Origin: a virus
Virus record (IMG/VR): IMGVR_UViG_3300028569_001145
Location: 40,702-104,701 of that record
Reading direction: 5' to 3' (one strand)
Length of the DNA stretch: 64,000 bases
Positions 3,117 through 37,722 of this stretch are shown in pieces; position 1 is the first letter of the stretch; each line of letters begins with the position of its first letter. Both the position numbers and the translations under genes were made by a program. The notes under the pieces are model-generated. The model worked only from the letters and a program-made list of their open reading frames with translations, had not been told where the DNA came from and made no database searches.

Positions 3117-3126
3117 TCATTAACCC

Positions 3127-3137
3127 GTCAAAGAACT
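3127..3137 (+). repeat. inverted copy of the boxA core
   Basis: GTCAAAGAACT is the exact reverse complement of 2795-2805. In a transcript covering both, the 11 bases could pair and hide the boxA, or form a long-range hairpin enclosing the membrane protein gene. Confidence 0.4.
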
Positions 3138-3149
3138 TTTCCTTTATTT

Positions 3150-3223
3150 GGACCTTTAGCTCAGCAGGTTAGAGCAGCGCTCTCATAAAGCGAAGGTCTC
3201 TGGTTCGAATCCAGAATGGTCCA
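3150..3223 (+). tRNA. tRNA-Met (anticodon CAT), second copy
   Basis: Acceptor GGACCTT pairs with ATGGTCC apart from one T-T. D stem GCTC/GAGC, loop CTCATAA, and T arm TCTGG-TTCGAAT-CCAGA are present. It differs clearly from the CAT tRNA at 418-486, so the two probably serve different roles (initiator, elongator or modified Ile). Confidence 0.88.
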
Positions 3224-3256
3224 CAACGCAGTCAGATGCCCGTAGCTACGGTTTAA

Positions 3257-3287
3257 GGTCTATCATTAATTTGGTAGGCCTTTTTTT
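3257..3287 (+). terminator. intrinsic terminator after the RNA locus
   Basis: GGTCTATC (3257-3264) pairs with GGTAGGCC (3273-3280) using three G-U pairs, followed by seven T. A 12-bp palindrome CCGTAGCTACGG (3240-3251) precedes it. Confidence 0.75.
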
Positions 3288-3294
3288 ATTTTAC

Positions 3295-3302
3295 TATTTA
3301 TC
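3295..3302 (+). promoter_or_regulatory. late promoter variant TATTTATC
   Basis: One mismatch to TATTTATA, 6 nt before ATG 3309 and right after the terminator. Confidence 0.45.
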
Positions 3303-3308
3303 AATGTT

Positions 3309-3461
3309 ATGGCACCAGCAAAAGGAAAATCAAAAACCACTTCAGTTATTACCAGGATTGAAAAGCCTAAAGTACGTCGTCCAGGAGTTCATGCAAAATC
3401 TAAAACATCTAAACTTAAACAAAGTAGAAATTACAAGAAGCTAAATAGAGGGCAAGGTTAA
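3309..3461 (+). CDS. small basic conserved phage protein
   Basis: A 50-residue, Lys/Arg/Ser-rich protein beginning MAPAKGKSKTT, with a central RRPGVHAKSKTSKLKQSRN and ending KKLNRGQG. From memory, short basic proteins with an RxGxHxK...NYKKxxRGQG tail are common in phages of Bacteroidota; their function is not known to me. It has no hydrophobic segment and could bind nucleic acid. The 3309 start is preferred over the out-of-frame ATG at 3304. The TATTTATC variant is just upstream. Confidence 0.65.
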   Translation: MAPAKGKSKTTSVITRIEKPKVRRPGVHAKSKTSKLKQSRNYKKLNRGQG

Positions 3462-3497
3462 TTGCTTTCTTCTTATTTTATTCGTATATTTACTGTT

Positions 3498-3728
3498 ATG
3501 AATAGTAGTTGGAGGATTATTGCTTTAAACCCTGATAAGAAGATAGGGGGTGTCTGGAGATTGAAAGATGATAAAAGGTTTTATTTAGGTGATTCTACTT
3601 CTTTCGGCTATATTGCAGAATTTTCAGTACGTAGTGGTTATATGTGGGCAAAGTGCGGTGGATCTAAAGTATACGGTATTCCAGAATTAAGAAGGTTTGA
3701 ATACGTTCTTTTAGAAGCTCTTTCCTAA
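3498..3728 (+). CDS. hypothetical protein
   Basis: An open frame extends upstream to TTG 3462, but ATG 3498 gives MNSSWRIIALNPDKK and follows a TATTTACT promoter-like variant. The 76-residue product is rich in aromatic residues (W, Y, F) and looks like a small compact beta protein. I do not recognise it. It is separated from the next gene by a promoter. Confidence 0.5.
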   Translation: MNSSWRIIALNPDKKIGGVWRLKDDKRFYLGDSTSFGYIAEFSVRSGYMWAKCGGSKVYGIPELRRFEYVLLEALS

Positions 3729-3737
3729 GATACTACC

Positions 3738-3745
3738 TATTTATA
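3738..3745 (+). promoter_or_regulatory. late promoter motif TATTTATA
   Basis: 18 nt before ATG 3764, leaving room for a short leader (which contains AGCGCT and a T run). Confidence 0.55.
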
Positions 3746-3763
3746 TAAAAGCGCTTTTTTAAA

Positions 3764-4297
3764 ATGAATAAACAATTTAACAGAATGCAGAAACTTGCCG
3801 GTATACTTACCGAAGGTTTATACACTACTCAAATGGATTTTGAATCTCCTGTTGCTACGGAAGGAAATGAAGTTCATGAGGAGGCGATGGATAATGTAGA
3901 GGGACCTATGCCCGAAGCTAGAAAGATGACCAAGGAGGAATTCAAATCTAAGATCCGTGAGATGATCTTGGCGGAAAGATCTCTTAGTGAAGCTAAGAAA
4001 AAGAAAGATAAAGAAGAGGATACTGCAGAGGAAGATGTTAATGTTGATATGGAACCTACCGGAGAAGAGGATGTTGATATGACTATGGATGTTCCACAGC
4101 CTGGTGATACTTCTATCGATATTAACGGTGACGGTGTTACTGATATTGATGCAGGATCTTCAGAAGCTAAAAAAGCCTTTGGTGATTTAACTGATGCTTT
4201 TCAAGCTGCTAAAGCTTTGGGAGATGAGAAGTTGATCCGTCAAATTGCAAACACAATTACATACTTTAATAAGAATATTATTCTAAAACAGGGTTAA
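3764..4297 (+). CDS. acidic protein with prohead-protease-like sites
   Basis: 177 residues. The N-terminus (RMQKLAGILTEG) resembles the C-terminal end of the scaffold protein (RFKKLAGL). A very acidic Asp/Glu-rich middle (about 85-135) follows a Lys run. L/M-x-E motifs of the kind cut by T4 gp21 occur at ILTE-G, MPE-A and LSE-A. The C-terminal 50 residues look helical. The composition suggests a scaffold-associated or internal head protein, but this is inference; no domain is recognised. The gene has its own promoter and a terminator. Confidence 0.6.
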   Translation: MNKQFNRMQKLAGILTEGLYTTQMDFESPVATEGNEVHEEAMDNVEGPMPEARKMTKEEFKSKIREMILAERSLSEAKKKKDKEEDTAEEDVNVDMEPTGEEDVDMTMDVPQPGDTSIDINGDGVTDIDAGSSEAKKAFGDLTDAFQAAKALGDEKLIRQIANTITYFNKNIILKQG

Positions 4298-32107: not shown

Positions 32108-32352
32108 AAGTAGGAGAAAACTACGTTATAAGAGAGTTCAATCAGAATATCGATCCGATTGAACTTTTATGGCACCGCGACAATGAAGACCGTATGATTG
32201 AAGTATTAGAATGCGGTGAAGGTTGGGGATTTCAATTTGATGACGGACTTCCTTTTGATTTAGAGCCAAGTACATCTATATTTATACTAAGACACGATTG
32301 GCATAGAGTTATAAAAGGAACAGATAGGTTATTAATAAAGATCAGTAAATAA
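32083..32352 (+). CDS. small cupin-like protein
   Basis: 89 residues. LLWHRDNEDRMIEVLECGEGWGFQ and HDWHRVIKGTDRLLIKI fit a single cupin barrel, with the His-x-Asp and a later His as possible metal ligands (short quotes of a longer match). It overlaps its neighbour by 25 nt. Similar small cupins occur near terminase genes of T4-like phages as I remember them. Enzymatic activity cannot be inferred. Confidence 0.55.
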   Translation: MEKPYRDIEVGENYVIREFNQNIDPIELLWHRDNEDRMIEVLECGEGWGFQFDDGLPFDLEPSTSIFILRHDWHRVIKGTDRLLIKISK

Positions 32353-32690
32353 TGAAAGACTTACTATACATTGTAATAGGGATAGTTGCAGGCGCTTGGA
32401 TATACTCAAAATACTTTAGTAAAAAGCCACAATCTCTACCAGACACTTCTGTTTATGAAAACAGGATAGATTCTTTACAGAAAGCTATTATAGCTGATAA
32501 AGCTAAACTTACAACTTATGATTCTATAGCAACAGCTCAAGAAACTAAGATTGCAAAATTGAATAAGAAATTACAAGATATAGCTGATGAAGCTGCTCAA
32601 CAACAAAAACAACATGAAGAAGATATTCAGCGTATTGGCGCTATGTCTAATAATGACATCGCCTCTACATTCGCAGAAAGTTTTAAATGA
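32352..32690 (+). CDS. inner-membrane coiled-coil protein, i-spanin-like candidate
   Basis: 112 residues: one N-terminal transmembrane helix (about 4-20), a short linker with prolines, then a long periplasmic-type coiled coil (SLQKAIIADKAKLTTYDSIA to the end). This is the layout of Rz-type inner-membrane spanins. A second reading frame begins within its 3' part (32614), as in the overlapping Rz/Rz1 class. No endolysin or holin is recognised nearby, so the role is tentative. Confidence 0.5.
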   Translation: MKDLLYIVIGIVAGAWIYSKYFSKKPQSLPDTSVYENRIDSLQKAIIADKAKLTTYDSIATAQETKIAKLNKKLQDIADEAAQQQKQHEEDIQRIGAMSNNDIASTFAESFK

Positions 32691-33018
32691 TACCTGCTGT
32701 GTACCTTGCCAGGCATTGCGCAAAGCTCTGATAATGAAATCAGAGAAAGAGTTATTAGAGAAGAAACTTAAAAATACTAGAGATACTATCAGTGTTTACT
32801 CTGAAGCTTTACTTGCTAAAGATACTATAATAACAGCACGAGATAGTTCTATTGCTGTCTATATCCGTAATGAAGGGCGTCATAATGAAATTATAAACAA
32901 TAAGGACTCTATTATTACAACATACGGGCAAGAAATACAGAATCAAAAGAACCAAAAAATAGGTGTTATTATAGCTCTAGTAATAACTATTCTAACTTGG
33001 ACATTAACTAGTTTATGA
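32614..33018 (+). CDS. secreted/membrane protein overlapping the i-spanin-like gene
   Basis: Start ATG 32614 gives a clear signal peptide (MKKIFSVLALCLIMTSPLHSQ); an in-frame ATG at 32587 would add nine residues before it. The mature part has CC and CxxxC-like cysteines, a coiled-coil body (SEKELLEKKLKNTRDTISVY) and a C-terminal hydrophobic helix (VIIALVITILTWTLTSL). It overlaps the preceding gene by 77 nt in another frame. There is no proper lipobox, so it does not fit a classical Rz1 lipoprotein. Lysis-partner function is a hypothesis. Confidence 0.5.
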   Translation: MKKIFSVLALCLIMTSPLHSQKVLNDTCCVPCQALRKALIMKSEKELLEKKLKNTRDTISVYSEALLAKDTIITARDSSIAVYIRNEGRHNEIINNKDSIITTYGQEIQNQKNQKIGVIIALVITILTWTLTSL

Positions 33019-33866
33019 GTTCACCAGACTTAAAACAAATTATTCGACAGGAATATGTAAAGTGTGCTGTAGATCCGGTGCATTTTATGAAAAAATACTG
33101 CTATATCCAGCACCCACAACGTGGTAGAATCTTCTTCCAACTGTACCCATTTCAAGAAAAAGTATTAACTCACTTTCAAAATAACCCATACTCAATCGTT
33201 TTAAAATCAAGACAGTTAGGATTATCGACTCTTGCTGCTGGATATTCACTATGGTTGATGCTTTTTCATAAAGATAAGAACGTACTAACCCTAGCAACTA
33301 CTCAAGCTACTGCCCGGAACCTAGTAACAAAGGTTCAATTTATGTATGATAACCTCCCAACATGGTTAAAGATAGATGCAGTAGAGAAAAACAAATTAAG
33401 CTTAAGGTTATCTAACGGATCTAAAATTACAGCTAAATCTTCAAACTCGGATTCTGCCCGTTCAGAAGCAGTATCGTTACTACTAGTAGACGAGGCAGCC
33501 TTTATTGAAAACATTGCAGAGACATGGGCATCAGCACAACAGACACTTGCAACAGGGGGAGGAGCAATTATACTTTCAACACCGTATGGTACCGGTAACT
33601 GGTTTCACCAGACATGGGTTAAAGCCGAACAAGGAGATAATAACTTTTTACCGATCAAACTACCATGGTACGTTCACCCAGAGCGTGATCAGACTTGGAG
33701 AGATGCACAAGATGCTTTATTAGGAGATCCAAGACTTGCAGCACAGGAGTGTGATTGTTTATGGGGCCCGACTCTAGTCACTGTACAGGATATACAAACA
33801 GGAGAAGAAAAAATAATATCTTTAGAAGATTTATATTGGGAATTACAAGAATGTGACTATTTATAA
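33015..33866 (+). CDS. 17: terminase large subunit, N-terminal part fused to a split-intein N fragment
   Basis: 283 residues. Residues 1-247 are the ATPase half of a gp17-like terminase: Walker A-type LKSRQLGLST (63-72), Walker B LLLVDEAA (155-162) and a coupling motif STPYGTGNW. At Cys248 (base 33756) the sequence changes into an intein N-terminus, CLWGPTLVTVQD with TGEEKIISLEDL (block A), and stops after 36 residues. The normal terminase continues in the gene at 34619. The last codons TAT-TTA-TAA are themselves the late promoter for the next gene. The N fragment cannot package DNA alone; trans-splicing with the 34619 product would restore a 526-residue enzyme. Confidence 0.88.
   Translation: MSSPDLKQIIRQEYVKCAVDPVHFMKKYCYIQHPQRGRIFFQLYPFQEKVLTHFQNNPYSIVLKSRQLGLSTLAAGYSLWLMLFHKDKNVLTLATTQATARNLVTKVQFMYDNLPTWLKIDAVEKNKLSLRLSNGSKITAKSSNSDSARSEAVSLLLVDEAAFIENIAETWASAQQTLATGGGAIILSTPYGTGNWFHQTWVKAEQGDNNFLPIKLPWYVHPERDQTWRDAQDALLGDPRLAAQECDCLWGPTLVTVQDIQTGEEKIISLEDLYWELQECDYL
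33858..33865 (+). promoter_or_regulatory. late promoter motif overlapping the split-intein N stop codon
   Basis: TATTTATA forms codons 282-283 and most of the stop of the N-terminal terminase gene. It lies 23 nt before ATG 33889 and would drive the endonuclease and the C-terminal terminase gene. Confidence 0.5.
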
Positions 33867-33888
33867 TAGGAAGACCTTCTTGAGCATT

Positions 33889-34635
33889 ATGAATCAAAGT
33901 CAAAGAACAAAAAAAAGCTGGGAAAAAAGAAAACAGGAAATACACGCTGCAGGAGTATACACTCGACAAGAAACCGTGGAGAAATTAATGCAGGACGGGT
34001 ATTACAAAACACTTAAAGGTAAAGCTAAAAACAGGACACTGAGTAAGGAGAATAAAAAACTGTTTAACTCAATATATAAACACACAGAGGAACTGGAGAA
34101 AACCTTTAGAGACCAGGGAGCATATAAAATTAACTACAGCTTTTACTATAGGATTTTATTTTTAGTAGAACACAACTCAAACTTAGACCAACTAAAATGT
34201 AAATGCGGTAGAAAGTATACATGGACAACCTACTGCAGGCACTGCCCAGAATACAAAAAAACATTTGCAGGTAAAAAACATACAGAAGGTACAAAGCTAA
34301 AAATGAGAATATCGGCATTAAACTACCTAGAAGAAGCTAAAGGGCAGCTGATGCCAAGGTATAATAAGCAAAGCATTCCTGTTATAGAGGCATACGGTAA
34401 AAAACACGGGTATAAATTTATGCATGCTGAAAACGGGGGAGAGTATTTTATAAGAGAGCTTGGCTATTTTTTGGATGCCTATGATCCTATTCAGAATATT
34501 GCTCTAGAAGTTGATGAGAAACATCATTTTAACAACAATGGGGAAATAAGAGAACGTGATTTAGAGAGACAAAAACAAATTGAAAACCTACTAGGGTGTA
34601 CCTTTATAAGAATAAAGCATGATAACACTTTATAA
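33889..34635 (+). CDS. Vsr-like homing endonuclease nested in the split terminase gene
   Basis: 248 residues from ATG 33889 (the frame is open from GTG 33853, inside the upstream gene). The N-terminal half is basic and helical. A Cys/His cluster (CKCGRKYTW ... CRHCPEY) follows at about 100-125. The C-terminal nuclease core reads GYFLDAYDP, NIALEVDEKHHF and RQKQIENLLGCTFIRI, a Vsr/EDxHD-type PD-(D/E)XK fold. Free-standing endonucleases of this type are known in genes fractured by split inteins (Dassa et al. 2009). It probably cuts unsplit terminase genes and copies itself in. It overlaps the next gene by 17 nt. Confidence 0.82.
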   Translation: MNQSQRTKKSWEKRKQEIHAAGVYTRQETVEKLMQDGYYKTLKGKAKNRTLSKENKKLFNSIYKHTEELEKTFRDQGAYKINYSFYYRILFLVEHNSNLDQLKCKCGRKYTWTTYCRHCPEYKKTFAGKKHTEGTKLKMRISALNYLEEAKGQLMPRYNKQSIPVIEAYGKKHGYKFMHAENGGEYFIRELGYFLDAYDPIQNIALEVDEKHHFNNNGEIRERDLERQKQIENLLGCTFIRIKHDNTL

Positions 34636-35782
34636 AAACCAGAAATATAAAATAAAAACCCCGGATGGGTATCAATTTTTCGAAGGAATAAGACGAACAA
34701 CTAAGGATAAAGTTCTCATAGTTGAGTTTACAGACGGCACAAAAACAGAATGTTCGGAAGAGCATATCTTTGTAGTTGGTACGGAACAAATCCTTGCAAA
34801 AAATTTAAAACAAGGTACCAAACTTAGTTCAACAAAGGAGGTAGGCAGTGTTAGAGCCGGGGGAACTTCTAAATTTTTGTACGATCTTGTACAGGTAGGT
34901 ACAGAACATATCTACATAACAGATGGATTCGTGTCACACAACTGTGATTTTGCTACATCTGGAGATACAGTATTCTACGGGGAATACATGGAGTTCTACG
35001 AACAGACCTATATGAAAGAGCCCCTAGAGAGAAGAGGTGTAGATAGGAATTTATGGATATGGGAACCTGTAGATTACTCTAGAAGCTACATGGTTATTGC
35101 TGACGTAGCAAGAGGAGATGGTAAAGATTATTCTGCTTTCCATATATTAGATATCGAGAACAATACACAAGTAGGAGAGTATAGGGGACAATTACCCCCT
35201 AAAGAATTTGGACACCTTTTAGTAGGGGTAGCCACAGAGTACAATACAGCACTACTGGTAGTAGAAAATGCAAATATTGGATGGTCTACTATTGAAACTA
35301 TTTTAGAAAGAGCTTATTCAAACCTATACTATTCTCCAAGATCAGGTAATGTTTCTGCAGATTCTTATTTCGATCAATATGATCAGAGTTCAAACATGGT
35401 ACCTGGATTTACTATGAATTCAAGAACTAGACCGTTAGTCATTGGCAAATTTCAAGAATACTTTAATGAGAAAGCTGTGATTATACAGTCTAAACGTTTA
35501 ATGGAAGAGATGAAGGTCTTTGTTTGGAAAAATGGACGAGCAGAAGCACAAGGAGGTTATAATGATGACTTGGTGATGTCTTTCGGAACAGCTATGTATG
35601 TCAGGGATACTGCTTTAAAGTATAGACAGCAGGGATTAGACCTAACACGTAATGCCCTTAATAATATAACAGTTACAAAAGCACCGCATCAAGCCGTTTA
35701 TATGCCTACAAATTTTCAAAATCCTAATCTAATAGACAACCACAAAGGAGGTCAAGAAGATATTTCTTGGATATATAAATAA
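34619..35782 (+). CDS. 17: split-intein C fragment fused to terminase large subunit, C-terminal part
   Basis: 387 residues. Residues 1-108 are the rest of the intein: a block B-like CSEEH (His49), block F FLYDLVQV (86-93) and block G DGFVSHN, ending in His107-Asn108. The +1 residue is Cys109 (base 34943). Residues 109-387 are the terminase nuclease half, starting CDFATSGDTVF, with IADVARGDGKDYS (Asp162), a Glu in LLVVENANIGWS and the acidic pair in GGYNDDLVMS. Fusion after ECD of the upstream product gives the AQECD-CDF transition expected for gp17. The long C part with a 36-residue N part is the atypical split described for AceL-TerL. Confidence 0.88.
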   Translation: MITLYKNQKYKIKTPDGYQFFEGIRRTTKDKVLIVEFTDGTKTECSEEHIFVVGTEQILAKNLKQGTKLSSTKEVGSVRAGGTSKFLYDLVQVGTEHIYITDGFVSHNCDFATSGDTVFYGEYMEFYEQTYMKEPLERRGVDRNLWIWEPVDYSRSYMVIADVARGDGKDYSAFHILDIENNTQVGEYRGQLPPKEFGHLLVGVATEYNTALLVVENANIGWSTIETILERAYSNLYYSPRSGNVSADSYFDQYDQSSNMVPGFTMNSRTRPLVIGKFQEYFNEKAVIIQSKRLMEEMKVFVWKNGRAEAQGGYNDDLVMSFGTAMYVRDTALKYRQQGLDLTRNALNNITVTKAPHQAVYMPTNFQNPNLIDNHKGGQEDISWIYK

Positions 35783-35802
35783 AAGTAACTGGCTTTCTTT
35801 CC

Positions 35803-35810
35803 TATTTATA
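35803..35810 (+). promoter_or_regulatory. late promoter motif TATTTATA, portal gene
   Basis: 19 nt before ATG 35830. Confidence 0.6.
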
Positions 35811-35829
35811 CTTATATTGTTGATTACAC

Positions 35830-37722
35830 ATGGCAGATACCAGTATACTTAGCAGACTACGTAGATTATTTTCTACTGATGTTATTATTAGAAACGTCGG
35901 AGGAGAACAACTAAAAGTTGCTGACACCAATCAAATTCAAATGTCCGGAGAGTTGGAAAATAACTCTCTTTTTTCTAGATACAATAGAATATACACGACA
36001 TCCCCAACATCCCTCTACGGATACCAATCATCATTTAACTACCAGACTTTAAGAACCCAATTGTATTCTGAGTATGATGCTATGGATACTGATGCAATTA
36101 TTGCTTCAGCTCTAGACATTCTTTCAGAAGAATCTACCTTGAAAAACGATATGGGGGAGGTTTTGCATATCCGATCTACAGATGAAAATATTCAAAAGAT
36201 TTTATACAATTTATTCTACGACGTATTAAATGTTGAATTTAATTTAAGCTGGTGGATTAGAAATATGTGTAAGTATGGAGATTTTTTCTTAAAATTAGAA
36301 ATCTCTGAGAAGTTTGGAGTCTACAATGTCATTCCTTTTTCTGCATTTAATATAGAAAGACAAGAAGGTTACGACCCAGAAAACCCAATGAAGGTACGAT
36401 TCAGGTACGACCCTGATGGACTTGCAGCAGATACTTATGGATATTTTAAGCTACCTAATCAAAACGATAGCAAATCCCTTTACTTCGATAACTATGAGAT
36501 AGCACACTTCAGATTACTAACAGATATCAACTTCTTACCTTATGGCCGTTCTTATATTGAACCTGCTAGAAAGTTATTCAAGCAGTATACCTTAATGGAG
36601 GATGCAATGTTAGTACACAGGATTGTAAGAGCTCCTGAGAAGCGTATTTTCTATATGAACGTAGGTGGTATCCCTCCTACAGAAGTAGAGAACTTTATGC
36701 AGAAAGCTATCTCTAAGATGAAACGTACCCCTTATATTGATCAAACAACCGGTGAATATAATCTTAAGTATAACATGCAGAACCTTATGGAGGATTTCTA
36801 CATTCCTGTGAGAGGTAATGACACTTCAACTAAGATTGATACTTTAGGGGGTTTGCAGTATGACGGTATAACGGACGTTACATACCTAAGAGACAAGTTA
36901 TTTGCTGCTTTGAGAATTCCAAAAGCATTTTTAGGTTATGATGAGAACGTTCAAGGTAAAGCAACACTTGCTGCTGAAGATATTCGCTTTGGTAGAACAG
37001 TAGAGAAAATACAGAGAATCATTACTTCAGAACTATATAAGATTGCTTTTGTGCATCTATATACACAAGGTTATACAGAAGAGGGGTTGACTAACTTTGA
37101 AATTTCTTTAACTACTCCATCTATTATTTACGACCAAGAAAGAGTAGCTTTAATGAAAGAAAAAATGGAGTTAGTAAACTCTATGATGGATTCTCAACTA
37201 TTCTCTTCTGATTGGATTTATGATAATATATTCCACTTAAGCCAAGATGAATACGCAGAAATGAGAGACCTTGCTCTACAAGATGCTAAACGTAAATTCC
37301 GTATGTCGCAGATCGAAAACGAAGGAAACGATCCTTTGGAGACTGGTAAATCTTTTGGAACTCCACATGATATTGCAACAGCTTACGGCAAAGGTAGGGT
37401 ATACGAGAGACCAGGTAACGTACCGGATGGCTATAATGAGGACGAACCTACTTTAGGTCGCCCTAAAGAAAAAGCATCTCATTACGGAACTCAAAACGAC
37501 CCTCTAGGTCAGGATAGAATCGGCAAAGTAGGTATGAAGACTGATGACCAGCAGGGATACGGTAGAGATAAATCAGCACCATTTGCTATGGAAACAAAGA
37601 AGCATTTCTACAAATACCAGAACATTTTAGATTCTATGACAGAGAAAAAAGTATTGCTATTTGAAGCAGAAAAAACAGCAGAGAATATGCTGGATGAGAG
37701 TCAATTAAGAGAAGAGATTTAA
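35830..37722 (+). CDS. 20: portal vertex protein gp20
   Basis: 630 residues, somewhat longer than T4 gp20. Typical segments are DALD-type repeats around MDTDAIIASALDILSEES, WWIRNMCKYGDFFLKL, YIEPARKLFKQYTLMEDAMLVHRI, RAPEKRIFYMNVGG and AALRIPKAFLGYDENVQGKA. It forms the dodecameric ring where terminase docks. The C-terminal 100 residues are polar, Gly/Asp-rich and specific to this phage. It directly follows terminase, the T4 order 17-20 with sheath and tube genes missing between. Confidence 0.93.
   Translation: MADTSILSRLRRLFSTDVIIRNVGGEQLKVADTNQIQMSGELENNSLFSRYNRIYTTSPTSLYGYQSSFNYQTLRTQLYSEYDAMDTDAIIASALDILSEESTLKNDMGEVLHIRSTDENIQKILYNLFYDVLNVEFNLSWWIRNMCKYGDFFLKLEISEKFGVYNVIPFSAFNIERQEGYDPENPMKVRFRYDPDGLAADTYGYFKLPNQNDSKSLYFDNYEIAHFRLLTDINFLPYGRSYIEPARKLFKQYTLMEDAMLVHRIVRAPEKRIFYMNVGGIPPTEVENFMQKAISKMKRTPYIDQTTGEYNLKYNMQNLMEDFYIPVRGNDTSTKIDTLGGLQYDGITDVTYLRDKLFAALRIPKAFLGYDENVQGKATLAAEDIRFGRTVEKIQRIITSELYKIAFVHLYTQGYTEEGLTNFEISLTTPSIIYDQERVALMKEKMELVNSMMDSQLFSSDWIYDNIFHLSQDEYAEMRDLALQDAKRKFRMSQIENEGNDPLETGKSFGTPHDIATAYGKGRVYERPGNVPDGYNEDEPTLGRPKEKASHYGTQNDPLGQDRIGKVGMKTDDQQGYGRDKSAPFAMETKKHFYKYQNILDSMTEKKVLLFEAEKTAENMLDESQLREEI

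Follow-up and report, generated by a model that had tools for sequence, protein, structure and literature searches.

The stretch of viral DNA analysed here (64,000 nucleotides, henceforth the window) comprises bases 40702–104701 of the 104.7-kb virus record IMGVR_UViG_3300028569_001145 and encodes the terminase large subunit (TerL) in two genes. We consider it highly likely that terL of this Immutovirus-like T4-type myophage is occupied by a mobile ‘fractured-gene’ cassette, a split class-1 intein that is itself interrupted by a free-standing homing-endonuclease gene. The cassette can be removed from the window to leave, exactly, the uninterrupted terminase found in relatives, and related cassettes occur in dozens of other phage terminases.

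Organization of the interrupted terL locus

The layout of the window's TerL is ExtN(247 aa)-IntN(36) + IntC(108)-ExtC(279), Ext and Int being the extein and intein parts. The first open reading frame (ORF; 33015–33866, 283 aa) runs through 247 TerL residues to ...AAQECD and continues into 36 residues, CLWGPTLV...ECDYL, before its stop codon. The second (34619–35782, 387 aa) begins with 108 intein residues ending in GFVSHN, after which 279 residues of terminase start at CDF. A first-pass annotation of this DNA, made from the sequence alone, had proposed a terminase in two genes joined by an atypically split intein, and the ORFs, the boundaries and the 36- and 108-aa intein parts are as it described them. 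Its interpretation was sound for the split intein and incomplete for the locus, as it missed a third gene, at 33853–34635, between the two halves.

Both halves are recognizable as terminase. The N half belongs to the T4-type terminase ATPases, with hits to Pfam Terminase_6N (E=9e-14) and PHROG 5989 (E=3.5e-44); for the C half the match is to terminase PHROG 24361 (E=3e-13). Compared with the uninterrupted TerL of locus L004, the window's TerL is 92% identical overall, with 95% identity in the N-extein and 90% in the C-extein. Taking out 33756–34942 (1187 nt) recreates the protein sequence ...LAAQECDCDFATSGDTVFYGEY..., identical there to L004 and L079. The exact empty site, ECD^CDF, is present in L004, L079, L005, L006 and Flavobacterium phage immuto, which is the nearest cultured relative by DNA similarity of the terL region and whose terminase is one uninterrupted gene. 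As 1187 nt is not a multiple of three, no one reading frame spans the insert. Each TerL part is present once in the 104.7-kb record, which holds no second copy of the terminase; a complete terminase gene elsewhere in the genome is what the first-pass annotation had named as evidence against its proposal.

Identity and conservation of the intein

IntC matches CatC (6dsl_B), a consensus of the atypically split AceL/GOS-TerL inteins, with E=1.1e-12 as a single sequence and 3e-19 as a profile. IntN matches CatN weakly (E=0.08). The combination of a short IntN and a long IntC in TerL (36 + 108 aa) fits the AceL/GOS/Cat lengths. When IntN alone was compared with PDB the only match was a chance one to an antibody; the window's IntN is 58–63% identical to the IntN of L083 and L084. 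The assignment first given, to an AceL-TerL/VidaL type, stands in its AceL-TerL part and is less apt for VidaL, to which the match is weaker (profile E=4e-4).

The class-1 residues Cys1, block-B His49, His107-Asn108 and Cys+1 are all found in the window, at the positions originally claimed for them, and they are near-invariant in the family. Cys1, Gly4, Asp89, His107 and Asn108 do not vary in any of the 59 loci that carry both intein parts (59/59), and block-B His49 is found wherever that position aligns (58/58). In two relatives, L161 and L163, a window-type intein lies contiguous inside a single terminase ORF. An AlphaFold model of the contiguous L161 intein, a natural relative of the window's, has a pLDDT of 92.9 and 53 PDB matches at E<=1e-3; among the matches listed nearly all are inteins or intein-like domains.

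Among relatives close enough to measure, dN/dS is ~0.08–0.32 for the intein, 0.06–0.28 for the endonuclease gene and 0.03–0.12 for TerL. Intein and endonuclease gene are both under purifying selection in these relatives; the window's own copy has no close occupied relative. The similarity to CatC, the exact empty sites, the residues invariant in 59 loci, the purifying selection in relatives, the intein fold of L161 and the single terminase copy together make it well supported that the window's intein is of class 1, atypically split and akin to AceL-TerL.

The gene between the intein halves

The middle gene occupies a third reading frame and shares 14 nt with the first ORF and 17 nt with the second. 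It has 260 codons when read from GTG 33853 and 248 from ATG 33889; the ATG start is better supported because homologues begin there. These homologues, 54–60% identical, lie in the same place in other phages, and D208, E219, E222, H225 and D236 are invariant among them. Weak Pfam matches to REase_MTES_1575 and DUF559, along with weak fold neighbours of a structural model, the I-Bth0305I catalytic domain (3r3p prob 0.51, target TM 0.45) and Vsr, point to a putative PD-(D/E)XK/Vsr-type nuclease. A sequence comparison of the gene product with PDB gave no meaningful match. Its C-terminal domain (~residues 128–246) also occurs in many free-standing phage genes, joined there to other N-terminal parts.

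Three further observations concern this gene. The best fold matches of the model are mitoribosomal proteins of Toxoplasma and Tetrahymena, at E-values of 0.02–0.2, and the fold is possibly of the RAP type. Free-standing relatives of the nuclease domain, again with other N-terminal parts, lie a few kb from uninterrupted terminases (L075:7806-8315, L076:3259-3858, L119-L133, L136 and L151). In L134 a second endonuclease relative (3125-3991) is found directly upstream of the fractured terminase gene.

Distribution and states of the cassette

Besides the window, 58 further distinct TerL loci carry both intein parts, nearly all of them at a site of the window's ECD^CDF type. The arrangement had at first been labelled rare, which fails in this phage group, where dozens of relatives share it. 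Across the 59 loci, window included, the endonuclease gene is intact in 45, decayed or a fragment in 5 and missing in 6 that are nonetheless still split; the remaining 3 are contiguous, one of which (L216) has its insertion at a neighbouring site. Empty TerL sequences amount to at least 65 further distinct ones, a lower bound, as the relatives retained were the best 80 of 158.

Intermediate states of the cassette can be recognized among these loci. L212 and L214 have near-identical intein DNA, with most of the endonuclease gene gone from L214, and remnants of the gene are kept in L171, L200 and L208. In L166 (2181-2633) the endonuclease gene has been lost and IntN and IntC lie in one frame with a single stop between them, which places the two halves one substitution away from rejoining. 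The contiguous intein of L161 sits in a tree group that otherwise bears the endonuclease, and this suggests that it was rejoined rather than that it represents the ancestral state. The relatives show the full cycle of such split genes, from origin through spread and decay to the rare event of rejoining. A different fusion is seen in L178 (3923-4755), where IntN and the endonuclease gene form one ORF in frame and IntC is separate.

Movement of the cassette

Comparisons of trees and aligned sequences demonstrate that the cassette, split intein and endonuclease gene together, moves as a unit. The intein tree and the endonuclease tree are broadly congruent, and both conflict with the TerL tree. 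In the TerL tree the window groups with eight empty terminases (support 97), whereas its intein and its endonuclease are both placed near L083, L086 and L087, three loci with much more distantly related terminases; supports around these three are moderate (85–92), that of the wider 11-row intein group being 98. Near-identical cassettes are also found in diverged terminases. Between L225 and L210, dS is 0.10–0.12 in the cassette versus 1.05 in TerL, and the L225 cassette is 93–99% identical to those of L212, L227 and L224 inside a more diverged TerL.

A third line of evidence comes from DNA flanking the insertion. Occupied L101 and empty L133 have mismatches at 24/520 positions beside the insertion versus 8/1780 further out (Fisher p=3e-10, for a tract of 60 nt upstream and 460 nt downstream whose limits were picked after inspection). 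At 20 downstream sites where the two differ, occupied L103 has the L101 base at 12/20 and the L133 base at 4; another occupied relative, L092, does not discriminate between them. This co-conversion-like tract is the footprint expected from gene conversion around a homing event. No such footprint was detectable around the window's own insertion, where the nearest empty relative, L004, differs by ~17–20% at the DNA level throughout. The converse pattern was noted in L117 and L208, whose TerL are ~96–100% identical and whose cassettes are diverged (76–96% where aligned), as if the cassette had been replaced.

Early-split terminases in cultured phages

Analogous arrangements occur in phages in culture. 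In Vibrio phage VP-1 (L234, MH363700, 337-3679) the terminase contains an early-split intein at EYD^C, a position equivalent to the window's. Its IntN continues in frame into a GIY-YIG-like domain, and IntC heads a second, separate TerL gene; the VP-1 terminase carries another intein, which is contiguous and follows SRQSGK (Walker A). In E. coli phage kaaroe (L235, MN850574, 745-3856) the terminase is split in early-split style inside the ATPase domain, at IDE^CAF, and the N ORF reads on in frame beyond IntN through a nuclease-like domain. The IDE^CAF split is present in seven cultured coliphage records including kaaroe, the genes being annotated as hypothetical or terminase. The kaaroe C-extein has 59 phage records at >=90% identity, only seven of which match the N-part with the cassette. 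Kaaroe, whose host is K-12 MG1655, has one copy of each TerL part in its genome. A cultured phage thus grows with its only detected terminase in two pieces, which supports the interpretation given here for the window.

Coordinates and neighbouring genes

The features of the locus are collected in Table 1. The gene downstream of terL is a T4-type portal (Pfam E=2e-65). Just upstream of terL, at 32352–33018, two short overlapping ORFs in different frames each encode a hydrophobic N-terminus and resemble a spanin pair. A group I or group II intron, or another structured RNA, was also considered for the insert; no Rfam family was found at E<=1 in 32500–36500.

Table 1. Features of the window's terL locus (window coordinates)
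Feature	Position	Strand	Basis
TerL N-extein, ATPase half, 247 aa; Walker A SRQLGLST, Walker B LLLVDEAAF, end ...AAQECD	33015..33755	+	Terminase_6N, PHROG 5989, L004
Intein N fragment, 36 aa; CLWGPTLV...ECDYL and stop codon	33756..33866	+	Starts at exact empty-site boundary
Endonuclease gene between intein halves; putative PD-(D/E)XK/Vsr-type homing endonuclease	33853..34635	+	Homologues in same place
Intein C fragment, 108 aa; block-B SEEH (His49), block-F LYD (Asp89), His107, Asn108	34619..34942	+	CatC match, conservation
TerL C-extein, nuclease half, 279 aa; begins Cys+1 CDF, with stop codon	34943..35782	+	PHROG 24361, L004
Whole mobile cassette (intein and endonuclease gene), 1187 nt	33756..34942	+	Absent from close relatives

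Proposed mechanism and alternative explanations

In the mechanism we propose, the three overlapping genes would be co-translated and IntN would dock into IntC, completing the intein fold. Cys1 would activate the ECD-Cys1 junction, the acyl group would pass to Cys+1 and Asn108 would cyclise. This class-1 pathway would free a TerL of 526 aa uniting ATPase and nuclease, plus an intein of 144 aa in two parts, lengths that had been predicted in the first-pass annotation and that agree with ORF arithmetic. In a mixed infection the endonuclease would cut a terL that lacks the insert, at or close to ECD^CDF, and the break would be repaired from the occupied copy, which would install the whole cassette along with some flanking extein DNA. 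Where the endonuclease gene was lost later, terL would mostly stay split and only rarely rejoin. The separate endonuclease gene occupies the early site and so offers a simple cause for the unusual split, which it very probably brought about.

Several points weigh against this account. The window's intein is on a long branch (0.93), and its own activity could therefore be weakened. The 6.5-kb contig L003, which is otherwise identical to the window over the compared stretch, lacks one base near window 34978 (L003 position 2683), just after the intein, so that its C half runs at once into a TAG stop. Because the window keeps the frame common to relatives, L003 rather than the window is probably the faulty version, through misassembly or as a minor variant. 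As the record covers part of a genome, there is some room for a second terminase elsewhere. The assignment of the endonuclease to a family is not established by its weak Pfam and fold matches, and splicing, DNA cleavage and the cleavage site are events that we infer.

We give little credence to an arrangement in which the halves never splice and the ATPase and nuclease remain separate chains, held non-covalently by intein parts that are catalytically vestigial. Such an arrangement would suit a split at the border of the ATPase and nuclease domains, as well as the endonuclease-less forms that remain split for some time, and other phage genes do tolerate division into two working polypeptides, for example ribonucleotide reductase (PMC10448857). 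It does not account for the invariance of Cys1, His107 and Asn108 in 59 loci, residues needed for splicing alone, or for the analogous split in kaaroe, which cuts within the ATPase domain; moreover, in vitro splicing is documented for close members of the consensus family (PMC11766414). It also seems quite improbable that the window's cassette is a decaying remnant, splicing poorly, with an inactive endonuclease and no longer mobile. All of its frames are open, its intein and endonuclease motifs are intact and, without splicing, the phage would be without a one-piece terminase. These facts stand against the long intein branch, the want of a close occupied relative, the one-base deletion just after the intein in L003 and the endonuclease decay in relatives, from which the idea of a remnant draws its support. 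Removal of the interruption as RNA by a group I intron with an endonuclease, its bypass by frameshifting or an assembly artefact is scarcely credible, since, although phage terminase genes carry introns with neighbouring endonucleases (ICP1, PMC10448857) and the insert covers three frames, no Rfam family matches 32500–36500 at E<=1, the ends of the insert bear protein-level intein motifs, L161 reads through in frame and the same arrangement recurs in dozens of separately assembled contigs.

Relation to known systems

Fractured genes whose split-intein halves are separated by an endonuclease gene were reportedly described by Dassa in 2009. The window resembles one such gene, AceL NrdHF, in that an essential phage gene is in two, with intein halves and a separate endonuclease gene between them. 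It differs in its early split (36 + 108), its class 1 intein and its PD-(D/E)XK/Vsr-like enzyme, AceL NrdHF having a class 3 intein divided at the usual split site (98 + 48 aa) and a GIY-YIG enzyme (PMC7891396).

The intein itself is closest in kind to AceL-TerL, GOS-TerL and Cat (PDB 6dsl), whose IntN are 25, 37 and ~30 aa and IntC ~104–110 aa (PMC11766414). Shared with these are the TerL host gene, a short IntN, an IntC of ~104–108 aa and clear CatC similarity, although the window's IntC is only about a third to a half identical to its relatives. With AceL and Cat the window's intein further shares the class-1 residues Cys1/Cys+1, unlike GOS-TerL, which uses Ser1 (PMC11766414). In the window the two halves are separated by an intact endonuclease gene; AceL-TerL and GOS-TerL were compared with it by their intein parts. 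The position of the split is the early one of AceL/GOS-TerL and not the usual endonuclease site of inteins; according to PMC6801210, the endonuclease domains inside inteins are all at one conserved site. A very short IntN and the intein fold are likewise shared with VidaL and with PolB16 OarG, the latter a Ser1/Ser+1 intein in a polymerase gene, split 15 + 168 aa (PMC10189870).

The endonuclease resembles I-Bth0305I and Vsr in its putative C-terminal nuclease domain, its conserved acidic residues and His, and a weak fold similarity. It has no significant sequence match to them and its N-terminal part differs; membership of this group is not established. Both components of the cassette are of known kinds, atypically split TerL inteins on the one hand and fractured genes with an endonuclease on the other, and the survey of relatives is the main addition.

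Significance

Different nuclease-like domains accompany the early split of these inteins, PD-(D/E)XK-like in the window, GIY-YIG-like and fused in frame to IntN at the equivalent TerL position in Vibrio phage VP-1, and of another kind in kaaroe. More broadly, we lean towards the view that early split sites in phage terminase inteins are scars left by the invasion of endonuclease genes away from the canonical site, that intein and endonuclease home as a unit, that loss of the endonuclease leaves an essential gene in two with rejoining, as in L161, a rare outcome, and that this early site has served several families of endonucleases.

The origin of two-gene forms of an essential gene, and the reason why some natural split inteins are divided so close to the N terminus, are still largely conjectural. 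The window's locus and its relatives provide a natural series of empty, fractured with intact endonuclease, decayed, split without endonuclease and rejoined terminases. Diverse IntN/IntC pairs from the family would widen the set of short-IntN split inteins for protein labelling. Since cultured E. coli phages such as kaaroe carry an analogous terminase, splicing and homing are directly testable.

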